Shown piece by piece: positions 53,895 to 63,998 of a DNA stretch of 64,000 nt (the stretch's first letter is position 1; the number at the start of each line of letters is the position of its first letter). This stretch comes from Candidatus Cloacimonadota bacterium. GTDB taxonomy: Bacteria > Cloacimonadota > Cloacimonadia > Cloacimonadales > TCS61. The notes beneath the pieces are model-generated. The model had not been told where the DNA came from. It saw nothing but the letters and a program-made list of their open reading frames with translations, and made no database searches. The DNA lies in assembly GCA_030600585.1 (NCBI GenBank), contig JAUVLU010000007.1, positions 1-64,000 of the forward strand, read 5' to 3'. A program made the translations under genes and the position numbers.

Positions 53895-54293
53895 TTATTT
53901 TGAATTCAATTCCAACCGGACCAGAGCTTTTTTCAATGAAGCCTCAGCACGCCTGAAATTTATATTTTCCTCTGAACTCTTCAGTCGTTTTTCCGCACGT
54001 TCTTTAGATGCTTTTGCTCGTGCGGCATCTATTTCATCTTTTTTCTCAATAGTATCACAGACTATTTTAACAATATTATTTTCTACCGTAACAAACCCAT
54101 CATGAATTGCATACTCTTCACTTTTATCATTTTGGAAAAGCTGAAGAACACCGGTCCTGATCTTTGTAATAAACGGTGTGTGATCAAAATATATTCCAAA
54201 ATCACCATCCACACCGGGAACTATAATATGATCATATTCTCCATCTATCCGGATCTGAGTTGGTTGAATAACCGTAATATGAATTTTACTCAT
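53895..54293 (-). CDS. atpC: ATP synthase epsilon subunit
   Basis: 'IIVPGVDGDFGIYFDHTPFITKIRTGVL'. Confidence 0.93.
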   Translation of the reverse strand: MSKIHITVIQPTQIRIDGEYDHIIVPGVDGDFGIYFDHTPFITKIRTGVLQLFQNDKSEEYAIHDGFVTVENNIVKIVCDTIEKKDEIDAARAKASKERAEKRLKSSEENINFRRAEASLKKALVRLELNSK

Positions 54294-54301
54294 ACGTTAC
54301 A

Positions 54302-55738
<1,437 letters not shown>

Positions 55739-56593
55739 TTATTGCTGGATAGCTTCTGCTCCGGATGCTATCTCAATTATTTCTGTTGTAATAGCCGCCT
55801 GCCTTGCCCTATTGTAATGAAGAACAAGTTTATCGATAAGTTCGGCAGCATTTTCAGTTGCAGAATCCATAGCGGTCATTCTGGCACCCTGTTCAGCGGC
55901 AGAGGATTCCAACATTATTCTCCAAATATCAACATGAATATATTTTTTTCCAAGTTCATAAATTATTGTCTCTTCATCAGGCTCATAAACATAATCCAGT
56001 TTGGAAATTTCATCGGATTCAATGGGAACGATAGGCAGGAGTTGTTTTACAATAATATCCTGCTGGATGGCAGATTTGAATTCATTATAAATAACATCGA
56101 TCTTATCGTAATTTTCATCTAAAAACAAACTTAATATCTTTTCTGCTACTTCTGTAGAAATACTAAAATCCATCTCGTTGAAAAGATTGATATAATTTTC
56201 GGTTACATTTGTAGAATGTTTTCTGAAGTAATCATACCCTTTTTTCCCAATACAGATCAAATCGGCATCAGGGTTTTTCTCAAGATGTATAATTGCTTTT
56301 TTTATTATGTGCGTATTAAAAGAACCGCAAAGACCTCTATCGGAAGTTACAACTATATAAACTGTTTTTCCTTTGCCTGTTACTTCGGCTAACAAGGGAT
56401 GATCTGTTGAAATATTTTTATTCTTCAGTGTTCGAAGCATATTGTTTACATGGTCTGCATAAGGTCTTGCATTAATGATATTATCTTGAGTTTTCCGCAA
56501 CTTGGAAGCAGCTACCATTTTCATGGCATTTGTGATCTGCTTCGTGCTCTTAATACTTTCAATTCGTGTTTTAATTTCCCTTAAATTAGCCAT
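55739..56593 (-). CDS. atpG: ATP synthase gamma subunit
   Basis: 'REIKTRIESIKSTKQITNAMKMVAASKLRK', 'SDRGLCGSFN', 'ENAAELIDKLVLHYNRARQAAITTEIIEIASGAEA'. Confidence 0.98.
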   Translation of the reverse strand: MANLREIKTRIESIKSTKQITNAMKMVAASKLRKTQDNIINARPYADHVNNMLRTLKNKNISTDHPLLAEVTGKGKTVYIVVTSDRGLCGSFNTHIIKKAIIHLEKNPDADLICIGKKGYDYFRKHSTNVTENYINLFNEMDFSISTEVAEKILSLFLDENYDKIDVIYNEFKSAIQQDIIVKQLLPIVPIESDEISKLDYVYEPDEETIIYELGKKYIHVDIWRIMLESSAAEQGARMTAMDSATENAAELIDKLVLHYNRARQAAITTEIIEIASGAEAIQQ

Positions 56594-56599
56594 AATTTC

Positions 56600-58099
56600 C
56601 TAAAATTTTGATAATACTTTTTCACAAATTTTGCGCATTGCATCTTTTATTTCGTCGTTCAGCTTTTCTTTTATCATGCTCTCTATAAATTCTTTATATT
56701 CGGAATCAAGTGTTGAATAAAGTTCTTCTTCAACTTTCTGCACATTTTCCACTTCAATTTCATCAAGGTAGCCTTCATTTGCCATAAATATAATGAACGT
56801 TTGTTTTGCTACAGAAAGTGGTGAATACTGTGCTTGCTTCAGAATTTCGATCAATCGTTTACCTCGTGTAAGTTGCGCTTGAGTTGCTTTATCGAGGTCT
56901 GAACCAAATTTCGCAAAAGCTTCAAGTTCAGTGTATTGAGCTAATGTAACACGAAGTTGTCCCGAAACACTTTTCATCGATTTCCGCTGTGCACTTCCTC
57001 CCACACGCGAAACCGAAAGTCCGGCATTAATAGCAGGACGGATACCGGAGTAAAACAAGCGGCTGTTCAGGAATATCTGCCCATCGGTAATTGAAATAAC
57101 GTTCGTAGGAATATATGCCGTAAGGTCATCTGCCTGTGTTTCTATAATTGGAAGAGCAGTAAGTGAACCGCCACCAAGCTCATCATTAAGTTTAGAAGCT
57201 CTTTCTAAAAGACGTGAATGAAGATAAAAGACATCTCCGGGATATGCTTCACGTCCGGGAGGTCTTCTAAGAAGTAATGAAAGTTCTCTGTAAGATACTG
57301 CATGTTTAGAAAGATCATCATAAATTATAAGTGCGTGTTTCCCGTTATCGCGGAAATATTCTCCCATTGTGCAACCTGCATATGGTGAGAGATACTGCAA
57401 AGAAGCTGATTCGGCAGCAGAGGCAACAACTATGATAGTATATTTCATGGCTCCGCTTGCCTCAAGTATATTTACAATTTTTGCTACAGATGATTTTTTC
57501 TGCCCGATAGCTACATAAACACAAATCACATCGGTATCTTTCTGATTTAAGATAGTATCAATGGCGATTGCTGTTTTACCTGTTTGACGATCGCCAATGA
57601 TCAATTCACGTTGACCTCTACCGATTGGGATCATTGAGTCAATGGCTTTGAGACCTGTTTGAAGTGGTTCTTTCACTGGCTGCCTTTCTATAACACCAAG
57701 TGCCTTTCTCTCTACCGGCTGATAAGCTTTTGCCTTGATCTCACCTTTGCCGTCCAGGGGTTCTCCAAGCGCATTCACAACACGTCCCAACATTGCCTCA
57801 CCAACCGGAACCTGCAAGATCTTCTTGGTTCTTTTTGCTATATCACCTTCTTTTATCTTTTGCGCTTCACCAAAAATAATACATCCGACATTATCTTCTT
57901 CCAGGTTTAATGCCATTCCCATAACATCACCGGGAAATTCGATCATCTCACCAGCCATTACATTGTCCATTCCGTAAATACGGGCAATGCCGTCTCCCAC
58001 CTGAACAACTTTTCCGGTTTCGGAAATATCAATATCAAATTTTAATCCTTTGATCTTATCTCTAAGAATCGAACTTATTTCATCTGGTTGTATTTTCAT
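56600..58099 (-). CDS. atpA: ATP synthase alpha subunit
   Basis: '[18 protein letters not shown]', '[16 protein letters not shown]'. Confidence 0.99.
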
Positions 58100-58106
58100 A
58101 CCGACC

Positions 58107-58652
58107 TCATTTCTTTTTTTTTGACTTAACTTTTAACAGTTTTACTAAATTATTTTTTATTGATCCGTCAATTAACAGGGAATCCGTAGTTGCTACAAAT
58201 CCGCCCAAAATTTCAGGATCGATCTTTGTTTCTAAAATAATATCTTTTCCAAGAATATCTTTTAATTTTGCAGATATGGAATCAAGCACGGTTTCGGGTA
58301 AATTATGAGCAATGGTTAATTCAACTTTGATCTGGTTCTTTTTATCTAAGATCATATTTTCCATATCCTGCAGAATATCAGCGATAATGTTGAATCTATG
58401 TTTTTTAATAAGAATACCGAATAAATTTTTCCACATATTTGTGTTCTTAAGATTCTGTGTCATATCCAATGCTATTTTCATACGTTTATTCATTGGAAAT
58501 AAATATGAATTAACAGCATTCACAAGTTCCGGTTCGGCTTTTATTGAGCTGTTCATTATATGAATATCAGCTAATATTGAATTGATCTCTTTATCATCGA
58601 GTTCATAAATAATAGCATGAGAATATCGTTGAGCAGCGAGAATATCTTTCAC
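58107..58652 (-). CDS. atpH: ATP synthase delta subunit
   Basis: '[11 protein letters not shown]...', C-term '[29 protein letters not shown]'. Confidence 0.92.
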
Positions 58653-59131
58653 TTATTTTCCCTTTCAGAGACGATTTTTTTTATCAGTTCTTTATCTTTT
58701 TTCTCATCGAGTTTTTCTGAGAGGAATTTAGAAGAAAGTTCGGCAACCATTTCTGCCAGTTCATCTTCAATTTTTTCCATAACTTTTACTTTCTCGGTTT
58801 CGAGTTGTTCTTCCGTATCCTGTAATATCCGTTTTTCCTGTTCTTTTGCATTCTTCATGATCTCTCTGGCTTTGCCTTCAGCATCACCGGCAGCAGCACT
58901 TTTCATCTTCCTGATATCTTCTGCAGATTGTTTTAACTCGGTGCTTTTTTCTTTGACAAGCTTCTCAGCTTTTACACGAGATGACTTTGCCTCATCAAGA
59001 TCAGAAGCTATTTTTTGCTGCCTCTCACTTAAGAATTTTTTAATCGGCTTATACAGGATCTTATTCAGAACGATCAGTAAAAGTACGAAATTCAGGATCA
59101 CGATAATGAGAGAATAATCTATACTAATCAT
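58649..59131 (-). CDS. atpF: ATP synthase b subunit
   Basis: N-terminal TM, long charged coiled coil, 'LLIVLNKILYKPIKKFLSERQQKIASDLDEAK'. Confidence 0.92.
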   Translation of the reverse strand: MISIDYSLIIVILNFVLLLIVLNKILYKPIKKFLSERQQKIASDLDEAKSSRVKAEKLVKEKSTELKQSAEDIRKMKSAAAGDAEGKAREIMKNAKEQEKRILQDTEEQLETEKVKVMEKIEDELAEMVAELSSKFLSEKLDEKKDKELIKKIVSERENK

Positions 59132-59204
59132 AAGATCTCCAAATTAAATATTTCGCTGTTGGAAGTTAAAACCTCCAACCGGCGTTCAATGTTCAGTTCT
59201 TTCC

Positions 59205-59456
59205 TTAAGTTGAGAATATCAACAGAAGAGCTATAACTAATGAATAAATACCTGTTGACTCGGACACAGCCTGACCAACAAGCATTGTACGTGTGATAAG
59301 ACTTGCGTTTTCCGGTGAACGCGCGATTCCCTCACAAGCTTTTCCTGCAACAAATCCTTCACCGATTCCGGGTCCTAAAGCACCCATTCCCATACACATT
59401 CCTGCACCTAAAAGCGCAGCAGCTTTCACGATTCCTTGTGCTAATGTTAATTCCAT
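59205..59456 (-). CDS. atpE: ATP synthase c subunit, single hairpin
   Basis: 'GALGPGIGEGFVAGKACEGIARSPENASLITRTMLVGQAVSESTGIYSLVIALLLIF'. Confidence 0.96.
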   Translation of the reverse strand: MELTLAQGIVKAAALLGAGMCMGMGALGPGIGEGFVAGKACEGIARSPENASLITRTMLVGQAVSESTGIYSLVIALLLIFST

Positions 59457-59486
59457 TTTTCCTCCAATATCCTCATATCAAATTAT

Positions 59487-60239
59487 TTATACTGCAAAGA
59501 TCAGCAGAAAAGCAATTACCAGCGAATATATAGCTGTCGATTCCGATACTGCTGCTCCCAAAAACATCGTTCTCATTATCATTGATCTTTCTTTTGGAAA
59601 TCTCCCCATCATATCATTTGCCTTACCGGCAACATAGCCAATGCCCGCTCCGGGTCCTATCGTTCCAAGCCCGATTGCCATTCCGGCACCGATCAATGAA
59701 ATTGATTTTAATAAAATCTTACCGACATTAAGACCTGCTGGTTGATTTGGAACAGAATACAAAAGCAGCAGTGAAACAACCAGTGCAAATATTGCAGAAG
59801 TTTGCGATAGTGCCTGACCAATGAGCATATTTCCCATTATCGCATTACCATGTTTGGGCATTCTTGCTACAGATTTGCATGCTTCTCCGCCGGAATATCC
59901 GGCTCCCAGAGATGGACCCAATGCACCGATTCCCATAGCGAGCCCTGCAGAAAGTAAAGCCGCTGCCCTGAACCAACCGCCTTCAGTAATATCAAAGCCG
60001 CCATATATCAGCAGCATGGAAATTACTAATGCAAAGATCCCTGCAGTTTGCGCTGCTGCCTGCCCAATAAGCATAGTTCTGAATAATTGATCATTAGCTT
60101 TGGGTTGCTTCATTATGCCGATAGCACCCTCTCCGGCAATTATTCCCGATCCAATACCTGTAGTAATAGCACCGAGACCCACACTTATTCCTGCTCCCAA
60201 ATATGCTGCGATCCTAATATATTCTACAGATAAAATCAT
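59487..60239 (-). CDS. triple-hairpin ATP synthase c subunit paralogue
   Basis: Three tandem c-type hairpins; helix-2 sites GQAAAQTAGIFALV, GQALSQTSAIFALV, GAAVSESTAIYSLV. Confidence 0.93.
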   Translation of the reverse strand: MILSVEYIRIAAYLGAGISVGLGAITTGIGSGIIAGEGAIGIMKQPKANDQLFRTMLIGQAAAQTAGIFALVISMLLIYGGFDITEGGWFRAAALLSAGLAMGIGALGPSLGAGYSGGEACKSVARMPKHGNAIMGNMLIGQALSQTSAIFALVVSLLLLYSVPNQPAGLNVGKILLKSISLIGAGMAIGLGTIGPGAGIGYVAGKANDMMGRFPKERSMIMRTMFLGAAVSESTAIYSLVIAFLLIFAV

Positions 60240-60242
60240 TTT

Positions 60243-61154
60243 CTACTCCGAGATCTCAACGCCAATATAAGTAAGTGCCAGCATTGTGAAAACAAACGCC
60301 TGTATAGTTCCAACGAACATTCCAAAGAAAAGATTTAAACCAACCGGAAAAACTACGTAGCTAACGAGAGAAGAAACAACGAGAATAATTATCGCTCCAC
60401 CCAAAATATTTCCGAATAAACGAAAAGAAATTGAAACAACTTTAGAAAGTTCGCCAATAATATCCAAAAGGAAAAGAGGATTTTTTACAGGATTTACATA
60501 ATTTTGTAAATGACCCCAGACACCTTTTACTTTAATGGCAGTTATATGAACTATTGCTACTGCGAAAAGTCCAAGTCCAAGCGGAACATTAAGATTTCTG
60601 GTTGGTTCCATAAACCCGGGAATCGGGATCATTCCAACCATATTGCAGACCCAGATGAATAAAAAAAGCGTTACGATATAAGGTGTAAAATGAATTCTCT
60701 CTTTACCGAGTGTTTCTACAACAAATTGTTCTAAGGTAGAATATATCATTTCAAATAATATCTGAGGTTGAGAAGGTCTTTTCAAAAGTTGTTTTTTTAT
60801 CAGGAATGCAATTAACAAGAGCAGAATATCTACAATAAGCAGCATACGCAAAAGTTGAAATGTTCCCATTGCACTTGCTTCACCAAATGCACTTTTAAAG
60901 AATTCATATGTTTTATTGCTACCGTAAATCTCTGGTGTTTCGCCGGTTTGACGATAATATTCATCGATCTGGAATTCTTCTGTTATTTTTTCTTGTAGGT
61001 TATAATGACTTTGAATATTTCTAAAGACAATTTTTCCACCATCAAATCCAATTTGAAGTTCTTTATTAAATCCATTTGAAACAAAAACTAATGCTGTTTC
61101 AATGAGAATAAATAAAATAAAAATCTTTAAAATTGGACTTTTCTTTCTCGCCAT
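60243..61154 (-). CDS. atpB: ATP synthase a subunit
   Basis: 'ISFRLFGNILGGAIII' with conserved Arg; 'FVFTMLALTYIGVEI'. Confidence 0.96.
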   Translation of the reverse strand: MARKKSPILKIFILFILIETALVFVSNGFNKELQIGFDGGKIVFRNIQSHYNLQEKITEEFQIDEYYRQTGETPEIYGSNKTYEFFKSAFGEASAMGTFQLLRMLLIVDILLLLIAFLIKKQLLKRPSQPQILFEMIYSTLEQFVVETLGKERIHFTPYIVTLFLFIWVCNMVGMIPIPGFMEPTRNLNVPLGLGLFAVAIVHITAIKVKGVWGHLQNYVNPVKNPLFLLDIIGELSKVVSISFRLFGNILGGAIIILVVSSLVSYVVFPVGLNLFFGMFVGTIQAFVFTMLALTYIGVEISE

Positions 61155-61155
61155 T

Positions 61156-61548
61156 CTATCCTCTAAAATATTTATTATCTCTCAAATTCCTTACAATCTC
61201 AACTATATAGATCACAATTTGTGCAGAGAGAAGACCTATACCAAAAATTATAATATTCGGCTTTATCAAAAAGAATATTGCAAGTGCAAATATCATTAAT
61301 GCGGCATATCTTATTAGTGAGCCTTTAGCTGCACTTACACGTGATTTCGTTGGCAAAAGTCCGATTCTTTTCTTCAAATTATGAGCTAACCATAAAAAAT
61401 TTCCTGCACTGCCTATCGTGCCCATGATCCAGCTTATAGACTGTTCAAAAAACCACGGTAAGGACAAGATCGCGGGTATGTTTGTCAAGAGAATAATCAT
61501 CAAAATTTTTTTAATGTATTTATTATTATCTTCCATACTTTTTATCAT
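61156..61548 (-). CDS. AtpI-like (ATP synthase I) membrane protein
   Basis: Four hydrophobic helices, directly upstream of atpB. Confidence 0.65.
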   Translation of the reverse strand: MIKSMEDNNKYIKKILMIILLTNIPAILSLPWFFEQSISWIMGTIGSAGNFLWLAHNLKKRIGLLPTKSRVSAAKGSLIRYAALMIFALAIFFLIKPNIIIFGIGLLSAQIVIYIVEIVRNLRDNKYFRG

Positions 61549-61777
61549 CTTTTTCTAAAATTTTTTTTAATAATTTATATGCTGCAAAAACTCCAGCAAC
61601 TGCACCAATTAGAACTCCAACCAATATTAATATTCCATCTGTTTGGAATTTTTTTTCCAGATACAATGCCCCAACTAAAAATATAAGGATCGAGCTGATT
61701 ACGGTAAGTCCTAACTGTGTTACCAGACTTATATATTTCAATAATTCACTATTCAGTTGGTTCTTTCTTTTCCACAT
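61526..61777 (-). CDS. AtpZ/AtpI-type putative F0F1-ATPase subunit
   Basis: 'QLGLTVISSILIFLVGALYLEKKFQTDGILILVGVLIGAVAGVFAAYKLLKKI' two-TM AtpZ-like. Confidence 0.75.
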   Translation of the reverse strand: MWKRKNQLNSELLKYISLVTQLGLTVISSILIFLVGALYLEKKFQTDGILILVGVLIGAVAGVFAAYKLLKKILEKDDKKYGR

Positions 61778-62975: not shown

Positions 62976-63998
62976 TTATTTCACTAAAATAAGTGATTTT
63001 GTTTTTACGCGATTATCTACTTGCAAACGATAATAATAAACACCACTAGAAACAGATTTTTTGTTATTGTCAGTTCCATCCCATATTACTGAATAATCAC
63101 CTTTTTGTTTATGTTCATTAACAAGTAGTTTTACTAATTGCCCTTTAATATTTAGAATTTTAAGTGTTGTTGAACCACCTTTATTTAGTGAGTAATTTAT
63201 TTGAGTTTCGGGATTGAAAGGATTGGGATAATTCTGTGATAAAGTTATAGAATGAAAACTACTTATAGTATGTTCTTCTATTGAATTTATTAATAAATCT
63301 TTTTTCATAAAATAAATATTAACTCTACCAATGCTATATTTTAAATAGACAAGATAAAGCATTTGATTTCTATAAATTAATCTAGGTTTACCTACGAAAT
63401 TGGTTTCACACTCATCAATAATCTCACCTTCAGGATTTCCATTTTGAAAAAAATAATATACTAATTTCCAACCGTTTTCTGTTTTCTCTCTTTCCACAAT
63501 ATGTTTATTATCGTTGTCATCAATTACTAAAACTTGTTCATAAGGATCTTCCACCAGAATTTCCGGTTCAGAGAAGGAAGTTCCATTAAAATAAGAATAC
63601 ATAGTCCCATCATTAGGTGGTATCAAATCATTTGTATATTCCCGCCAAACCAGATGAGGATATTCATTATTGTCCAAATTTACATCTTTGCCAGACCAAC
63701 ATGTCCTTATCCCTAAAATTATCGGTTCTTCCCAAATATCTGACGCATAATCATATTTTATATATGAGGTTCTTGAGCCAATATCTTCAGGATGATGATC
63801 AATTATGCAATGAAGATTATTGTTATTATCGCTAACACATTCTACCAAACAATATTGATCACTATTATTTTCATAAGGACAAATAATGTCACTCCATTCA
63901 TCATTTTCCAAAAAACGATAGTAAATTTCACCTTCGGGACCTCCCCAATGCCAGAAAACATAAACTCTATCATTATTATCAATAACCACATCACTCAT
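62976..63998 (-). CDS. secreted protein with T9SS-type CTD (N-terminus beyond window)
   Basis: CTD 'LSQNYPNPFNPETQINYSLNKGGSTTLKILNIKGQLVKLLVNEHKQKGDYSVIWDGTDNNKKSVSSGVYYYRLQVDNRVKTKSLILVK'; reading frame reaches window edge. Confidence 0.85.
   Translation of the reverse strand: MSDVVIDNNDRVYVFWHWGGPEGEIYYRFLENDEWSDIICPYENNSDQYCLVECVSDNNNNLHCIIDHHPEDIGSRTSYIKYDYASDIWEEPIILGIRTCWSGKDVNLDNNEYPHLVWREYTNDLIPPNDGTMYSYFNGTSFSEPEILVEDPYEQVLVIDDNDNKHIVEREKTENGWKLVYYFFQNGNPEGEIIDECETNFVGKPRLIYRNQMLYLVYLKYSIGRVNIYFMKKDLLINSIEEHTISSFHSITLSQNYPNPFNPETQINYSLNKGGSTTLKILNIKGQLVKLLVNEHKQKGDYSVIWDGTDNNKKSVSSGVYYYRLQVDNRVKTKSLILVK

Follow-up and report, generated by a model that had tools for sequence, protein, structure and literature searches.

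A three-hairpin c subunit with silent ion sites beside a normal c subunit in an F-type ATP synthase operon of Candidatus Cloacimonadota: a probable heteromeric rotor

The window analysed here is a stretch of 64,000 nucleotides from a Candidatus Cloacimonadota genome (contig JAUVLU010000007.1, positions 1 to 64,000), and it encodes an F-type ATP synthase with two different c subunits. A large c subunit made of three tandem hairpins, of which only one retains the helix-2 carboxylate that binds the ion, is encoded beside a normal single-hairpin c subunit. The operon probably builds a heteromeric Na+-type c-ring with a silent sector that would lower the number of ions carried per ATP. A heteromeric ring with silent positions had been proposed in the initial annotation of this DNA, and it is supported as the best reading by the operon order, the selection acting on the gene, the Glu/Gln states of the ion sites and the loop motifs. 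From the sequences we infer co-assembly of both proteins in one ring, their copy number, the use of Na+ and the effect on the ion/ATP ratio.

The large c subunit and its ion sites

The two c genes and the three large-c hairpins have the following positions:
59487..60239, minus strand: gene of the large three-hairpin c subunit, 250 residues, supported by an intact open reading frame, three Pfam ATP-synt_C matches, an AlphaFold2 model and orthologues
60003..60227, minus strand: hairpin 1 of the large c, residues 5-79, site Gln64 (CAA, 60048-60050), helix-1 position Ser instead of Glu or Gln
59754..59987, minus strand: hairpin 2 of the large c, residues 85-162, site Gln146 (CAA, 59802-59804), helix-1 position Ala
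59493..59726, minus strand: hairpin 3 of the large c, residues 172-249, site Glu233 (GAA, 59541-59543), helix-1 position Ile
59205..59456, minus strand: normal single-hairpin c subunit (atpE), 83 residues, Glu33 (GAA, 59358-59360) and Glu66 (GAG, 59259-59261)

The initial annotation had described an open reading frame of 250 residues with three tandem c hairpins between atpB and atpE, carrying Gln, Gln and Glu at the helix-2 sites; strand, length and all three codons proved exact. Since the helix-1 position holds Ser in hairpin 1, Ala in hairpin 2 and Ile in hairpin 3, none of the three hairpins, including hairpin 3 with its Glu, is predicted to form a complete Na+ site. The AlphaFold2 model, which was calculated with 38 orthologues as input, features three helical hairpins with a mean pLDDT of 94.1. 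The Pfam ATP-synt_C model matches the large c three times, the small c once and nothing else in the genome (96.8% complete), so the F-type operon is the only detectable rotary ATPase of this genome.

The large c passed the cut-offs of all three F-type c models, with scores of 156.7 for PRK07159 (cut-off 122), 146.3 for PRK13471 (124) and 105.1 for TIGR01260 (43.95), and remained below those of the V-type K models PRK06271 (64.1, cut-off 211) and PRK14893 (56.3, cut-off 188). These scores rule out a V-type subunit captured by an F-type operon. The alt_F1F0 c model TIGR03322 (cut-off 130.85) gave 124.5 for the large c and 67.3 for the small c, both below the threshold, and the a subunit scored 94.4 with the alt_F1F0 model TIGR03306 (cut-off 302.1), which places the enzyme outside the N-ATPases.

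The small c features a Glu in helix 1 (GPGIGEG) and a Glu in helix 2 (VSESTGIY), which together form the two-carboxylate Na+ motif. The helix-2 Glu had been reported in the initial annotation as part of VSESTGIYSLV and was found as described; the helix-1 Glu had been missed. In the Na+ site of Fusobacterium nucleatum, Glu32 and Glu65 belong to one subunit, and its neighbour supplies Ser66 and Val63 (PMC3692424). Residues equivalent to Glu32, Glu65, Ser66 and Tyr70 are present in the small c (GEGF and VSESTGIY). The helix-1 Glu is found in 72 of 74 scored small c subunits, the other two having Gln, and the helix-2 Glu is invariant in Cloacimonadota (72/72).

Conservation and selection in Cloacimonadota

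The large c was searched for in 125 Cloacimonadota genomes, and the query matched 50 of 60 relatives of the window genome, which is itself placed beside Ca. Tenebribacter. Chance or assembly error is excluded because full-length orthologues with 47-96% identity occupy the same operon position across the phylum. The gene order a, large c, small c is found in all 67 loci that have all three genes. Absence or decay of the large c in relatives had been named in the initial annotation as evidence that would speak against its proposal. The large c is absent from a single family (f10; G044, G051, G054, G056-G059 and others), which lacks this F-type rotor and whose checked genomes have a V/A-type two-hairpin c, and it is present throughout the rest of the phylum. 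Two loci of this family (L077 and L078) carry an additional, distant F-type-like c that resembles those of N-ATPases.

Decay is not what the relatives show. The open reading frame is intact in nearly all genomes, and the large c is under strong purifying selection, with an omega within the genus of 0.05; the small c, a, b and delta have values of 0.034, 0.067, 0.10 and 0.16, respectively. The silent hairpins 1 and 2 have omega values of 0.043 and 0.040, a constraint equal to that on the rest of the protein. The loss of active-site carboxylates might be taken as the mark of a decaying, functionless duplicate; the low omega, the intact reading frames and the phylum-wide conservation refute this explanation and leave it a negligible probability. 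A pseudogene or an assembly error is ruled out on the same grounds, together with the phylum-wide synteny.

The F1-facing loop is kept in every hairpin of the large c, as Gln-Pro in the first (63/63), Arg..Pro in the second (63/63) and Arg/Lys (62/63) with Pro (57/63) in the third, and the helix-packing glycines and the ion-site position are also kept in each of them. Additionally, the conserved Arg of the a subunit is found in 75 of 75 sequences. The retained loop and Arg, for which there is no obvious reason outside a rotor, are the main evidence that the large c would be a member of the ring.

Some loci deviate from this pattern. The large c appears frameshifted in single metagenome-assembled genomes (MAGs; L061/L137 of G109 and L025 of G023), where a sequencing error is likely. 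The operon is split in L072/L075 (G122) and L058/L059 (G107), with the large c and a on one contig and the small c on another, and in L058 alpha directly follows the large c. A 164-residue large c with two hairpins, both with Glu, is found in L073 (G124), which indicates that the hairpin number has changed within the phylum. A MAG named Armatimonadetes (L124) has a typical Cloacimonadota operon that groups with this phylum, and it is probably mislabelled.

Exchange of Glu and Gln at the ion sites

The states of the three sites, in the order of the hairpins, were determined for 68 distinct large c subunits: EQE in 25, QQE in 22, EEE in 8, EQQ in 6, QQQ in 2 and GQE in 2; the remaining three are one two-hairpin protein (EE) and two cut or frameshifted sequences. 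In 63 large c subunits the site residues are almost exclusively Glu or Gln, with one Gly in the set. Both QQQ proteins are intact, and one of them (L103/L013, codon CAA) comes from the genus of the window genome. In hairpin 1 the helix-1 and helix-2 carboxylates are lost together, with Ser accompanying Gln in 24 sequences and Glu accompanying Glu in 32.

The history of the sites was reconstructed by parsimony on a tree of the a, alpha, delta and b subunits with outgroups. The hairpin-1 Glu is ancestral and was lost once to Gln, in a clade of 26 genomes that includes the window genome, and once to Gly. In hairpin 2 the ancestral residue is Gln, which was replaced by Glu about four times (the misaligned two-hairpin protein accounts for a fifth counted event). 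The hairpin-3 Glu was changed to Gln at least five times. An ancestral EEE protein whose silent sites arose by progressive loss is ruled out by the ancestral Gln of hairpin 2. The initial annotation had also named relatives with Glu in hairpins 1 and 2 as evidence against its proposal. Such relatives exist in part, with an ancestral Glu in hairpin 1 and Glu in hairpin 2 in about four lineages; other relatives have lost all three carboxylates, and for this reason the finding points to tunable sites instead of a mistaken idea.

The same exchanges bear on a purely structural role, in which the large c would be part of the ring to nucleate its assembly, fix its size or seal it, and any change of the ratio would be a by-product. 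The repeated loss of carboxylates (at least five times in hairpin 3) while the rest of the protein is under strong purifying selection fits such a role, as do the two genomes without any large-c carboxylate and with intact reading frames. However, drift at dispensable sites should yield many residues, whereas only Glu or Gln is kept; hairpin 2 changed from Gln to Glu about four times; and a subunit acting as a fixed template would not be expected to have anything from 2 to 6 hairpins. This explanation is considered unlikely, though it is the strongest of those that compete with a geared ring.

Occurrence in other phyla and origin

A wider sample was taken from matches at E <= 1e-25 in 395 Desulfobacterota and 392 Planctomycetota genomes, the phyla of a Desulfobacteraceae MAG and a Phycisphaerae MAG, respectively. 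A large c beside a normal c is found in 43 of the 395 Desulfobacterota and 23 of the 392 Planctomycetota genomes, and the large c subunits that were read in these two phyla have 2-6 hairpins. The Desulfobacterota sequences read are EQQQ (9), EQQE (8), EQQQQQ (5), EQQQE (5), EQEE (2) and EQQQQ (1). The six-hairpin proteins (L167, L168, L170, L171 and L173) have a Glu only in hairpin 1, followed by five Gln, and lie beside a normal c. The longest run of consecutive silent hairpins is five in Desulfobacterota and three in Cloacimonadota. The Planctomycetota proteins read mostly have three hairpins, with Gln, Thr or Ser at the silent sites. The small c retains its Glu in 51 of 51 cases in the two phyla. 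A further c locus is present elsewhere in all 20 Desulfobacterota genomes examined, and the geared enzyme is therefore an additional ATPase in them.

In a tree of individual hairpins, Cloacimonadota have a single group each for their first, their middle and their last hairpins, and the first hairpins of the three phyla fall together, which suggests that the large c subunits of Cloacimonadota, Desulfobacterota and Planctomycetota are one old family with later changes in hairpin number. The hairpins of c1 from Acetobacterium woodii join the c2 of the same organism (SH-aLRT 99), which suggests a separate origin of the duplicated c of acetogens; common ancestry with A. woodii c1 is not supported. 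The alignment has 75 columns only, and the tree is moderate evidence for either statement. In two Ruminococcus MAGs (L141 and L143) a pair of single-hairpin c genes lies in tandem, with Ile in helix 1 of the first and Glu in that of the second. These pairs are possibly another mixed rotor, the helix-1 Ile of the first gene being the residue also found in hairpin 3 of the large c.

A silent sector in a mixed ring

The proposed ring would consist of several small two-carboxylate c subunits and one, or a few, three-hairpin c subunits. Being covalently linked, the large-c hairpins would place neutral Gln positions in the ring as a fixed sector. Gln may mimic the neutral, loaded Glu and could cross the hydrophobic a/c interface without an ion, so that three ATP per turn would be kept while fewer ions are carried. 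In a ring assumed from known Na+ rings to have 11 hairpins, one large c would give 11 ion sites with EEE, 10 with EQE, 9 with QQE and 8 with QQQ, which corresponds to 3.67 to 2.67 ions per ATP. The enzyme of the window, with one large c and about eight small c subunits, would have 9 sites if hairpin 3 is active and 8 if it is not, and under the same assumption would carry 3.0 or 2.67 ions per ATP compared to 3.67. By simple arithmetic, a phosphorylation potential of 50 kJ/mol would then demand an ion-motive force of 173 or 194 mV instead of 141 mV. A lower ratio would mean fewer ions per ATP made and a higher ion-motive force needed, or alternatively would allow ATP hydrolysis to pump against a higher ion-motive force, and point mutations between Glu and Gln would act as a gear shift. 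A broader generalization is more tentative, and may well be too wide: that c subunits of 2-6 hairpins insert a contiguous ion-silent sector into a Na+ ring that still couples, with Glu/Gln switches stepping the ratio by one third.

Several points weigh against a geared ring. The large c is a putative ring member with a putative copy number, and the ring size of 11 hairpins is an assumption. Ile occupies the helix-1 ligand position of hairpin 3 in 59 of 63 sequences, so that even the site with a Glu may not bind Na+. In a fused c10 ring of Bacillus PS3 a single E56Q substitution abolished ATP synthesis (Mitome 2004, as cited in PMC8809890), and because of this result tight coupling is difficult to square with two to three neighbouring silent hairpins, or with the five of some Desulfobacterota. 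Either these rotors have a coupling mechanism that is missing in engineered H+ rings, or the silent sector leads to slip or to a machine that only pumps.

The finding that a single engineered Gln strongly inhibits the PS3 enzyme (PMC8809890) also lends something to the view that the large c is a membrane assembly chaperone or regulator instead of a rotor part, and the fully silent QQQ and six-hairpin EQQQQQ forms could be read in the same way. Against it stand the packing glycines, the F1-binding loop and the ion-site position, which are kept in every hairpin, and the fact that the close analogue A. woodii c1 is a solved ring member. A role outside the rotor is accordingly given very little credence.

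The operon and its genome context

The window contains a complete F-type operon (53895-61154) in the order a, c, c, b, delta, alpha, gamma, beta and epsilon. Apart from the two c genes, its features are:
61156..61777, minus strand: two small membrane proteins upstream of atpB, AtpI/AtpZ-like candidates by position
60243..61154, minus strand: atpB, stator a subunit, with the conserved Arg (SFRLFGN)
60246..60249, minus strand: GGAG ribosome-binding site of the large c, within the end of atpB
59461..59465, minus strand: GGAGG ribosome-binding site of the small c
58649..59131, minus strand: atpF, b subunit, by position and orthologues
58107..58652, minus strand: atpH, delta subunit, by position and orthologues
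56600..58099, minus strand: atpA, alpha subunit, by position and orthologues
55739..56593, minus strand: atpG, gamma subunit
54302..55702, minus strand: atpD, beta subunit
53895..54293, minus strand: atpC, epsilon subunit, by position and sequence

The large c gene starts 3 nucleotides after atpB and is separated from the small c gene by 30 nucleotides. In most loci the small c has a stronger Shine-Dalgarno sequence than the large c. Separate translation of the two c genes, from Shine-Dalgarno sequences of unequal strength, would suit a cell that makes two alternative rotors, small-c-only or mixed according to conditions, and switches between synthesis and pumping; a special role of this kind is plausible where the mixed operon encodes an extra ATPase, as in the 20 Desulfobacterota examined. 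Both c genes lie in the same operon, however, with a gap of only 30 nucleotides, and alternative rotors are judged improbable. A second ATPase that could supply a separate ring was not found in the window genome, at the completeness given above.

The window genome has a complete rnfCDGEAB operon, and Rnf is likely its ion pump. The initial annotation had suggested that the silent positions might favour ATP-driven ion pumping; the mixed enzyme is an additional ATPase in the 20 Desulfobacterota examined, but in the window genome it is the sole one and occurs together with Rnf, and it may serve mainly for synthesis or mainly for pumping. The description of the genus (PMC8542988) attributes to it Rnf and a Na+ F-type synthase as parts of a Na+ cycle. 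No Na+ pyrophosphatase was found in the window genome, though the same description lists HppA. At 62976-63998 the window encodes a protein that ends in a NPFNPETQINYSL...-type C-terminal domain, which is typical of secreted, sorted proteins.

Implications and comparison with known rotary ATPases

Rotary ATPases are believed to have an ion/ATP ratio fixed by the size of the ring, with one ion per c hairpin. The large c subunits represent a widespread, ancient family in which covalently linked silent hairpins seem to set this ratio. Their natural variants resemble each other in the rest of the sequence but carry 3, 2, 1 or 0 carboxylates, and with them two questions come within reach of direct tests: at what number of adjacent silent positions an F-type motor uncouples, and whether point mutations are the means by which anaerobes adjust the ratio. 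For many anaerobes, ATP yields calculated only from the ring size may be in error. If true, the series of geared rotors would overturn two assumptions, that an ion must be carried at each c position and that synthesis is halted by one silent c. The fully silent QQQ forms pose a challenge to present models of coupling.

F-type hybrid rotors that contain a two-hairpin c have been described before. No triple-hairpin bacterial F-type c, and none with three or more hairpins and several silent sites, was found in the open-access literature, although a 2015 survey of hybrid rotors could list some carriers. The c11 ring of F. nucleatum (PMC3692424) shares with the small c of the window the Glu at positions 32 and 65, Ser66, Thr67 and Tyr70, but it is built from a single kind of c without a large c. 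Multi-hairpin c subunits of archaeal A-type enzymes, such as the triplication in Methanocaldococcus jannaschii and the 13 hairpins in Methanopyrus kandleri (PMC2359735), also have tandem hairpins in one protein, some without ion ligands; the large c of the window, in contrast, scores as F-type and has a separate single-hairpin partner. The c/K subunits of eukaryotic and bacterial V-type enzymes, with two hairpins and one Glu, have a similar fold and silent hairpins that lower the ion/ATP ratio. In these subunits silent and active hairpins alternate, whereas in the window the silent hairpins are neighbours and belong to an F-type operon.

The closest known system is the F/V-hybrid rotor of A. 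woodii and Clostridium aceticum, which, as described in PMC7911925, combines a two-hairpin c1 with c2/c3. The solved protein nearest to the large c, by both sequence and fold, is the A. woodii c1, 4bem_J (E 1e-26 and 3e-8), which belongs to a solved heteromeric F-type ring (PMC7911925), and the likeness to this rotor claimed in the initial annotation is thereby supported. Both systems have an F-type operon in which the genes for a multi-hairpin c and a normal c are neighbours, a Glu-to-Gln change in the multi-hairpin c and a Na+-type small c, and both occur in an anaerobe with Rnf. The large c of the window differs from c1 in having three hairpins instead of two, and two neighbouring silent hairpins (three elsewhere) instead of one. 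Its remaining site appears incomplete for Na+, as the Ile in helix 1 of hairpin 3 departs from the pattern Q/E ... ET/ES, and its duplication looks independent of that in the acetogens.
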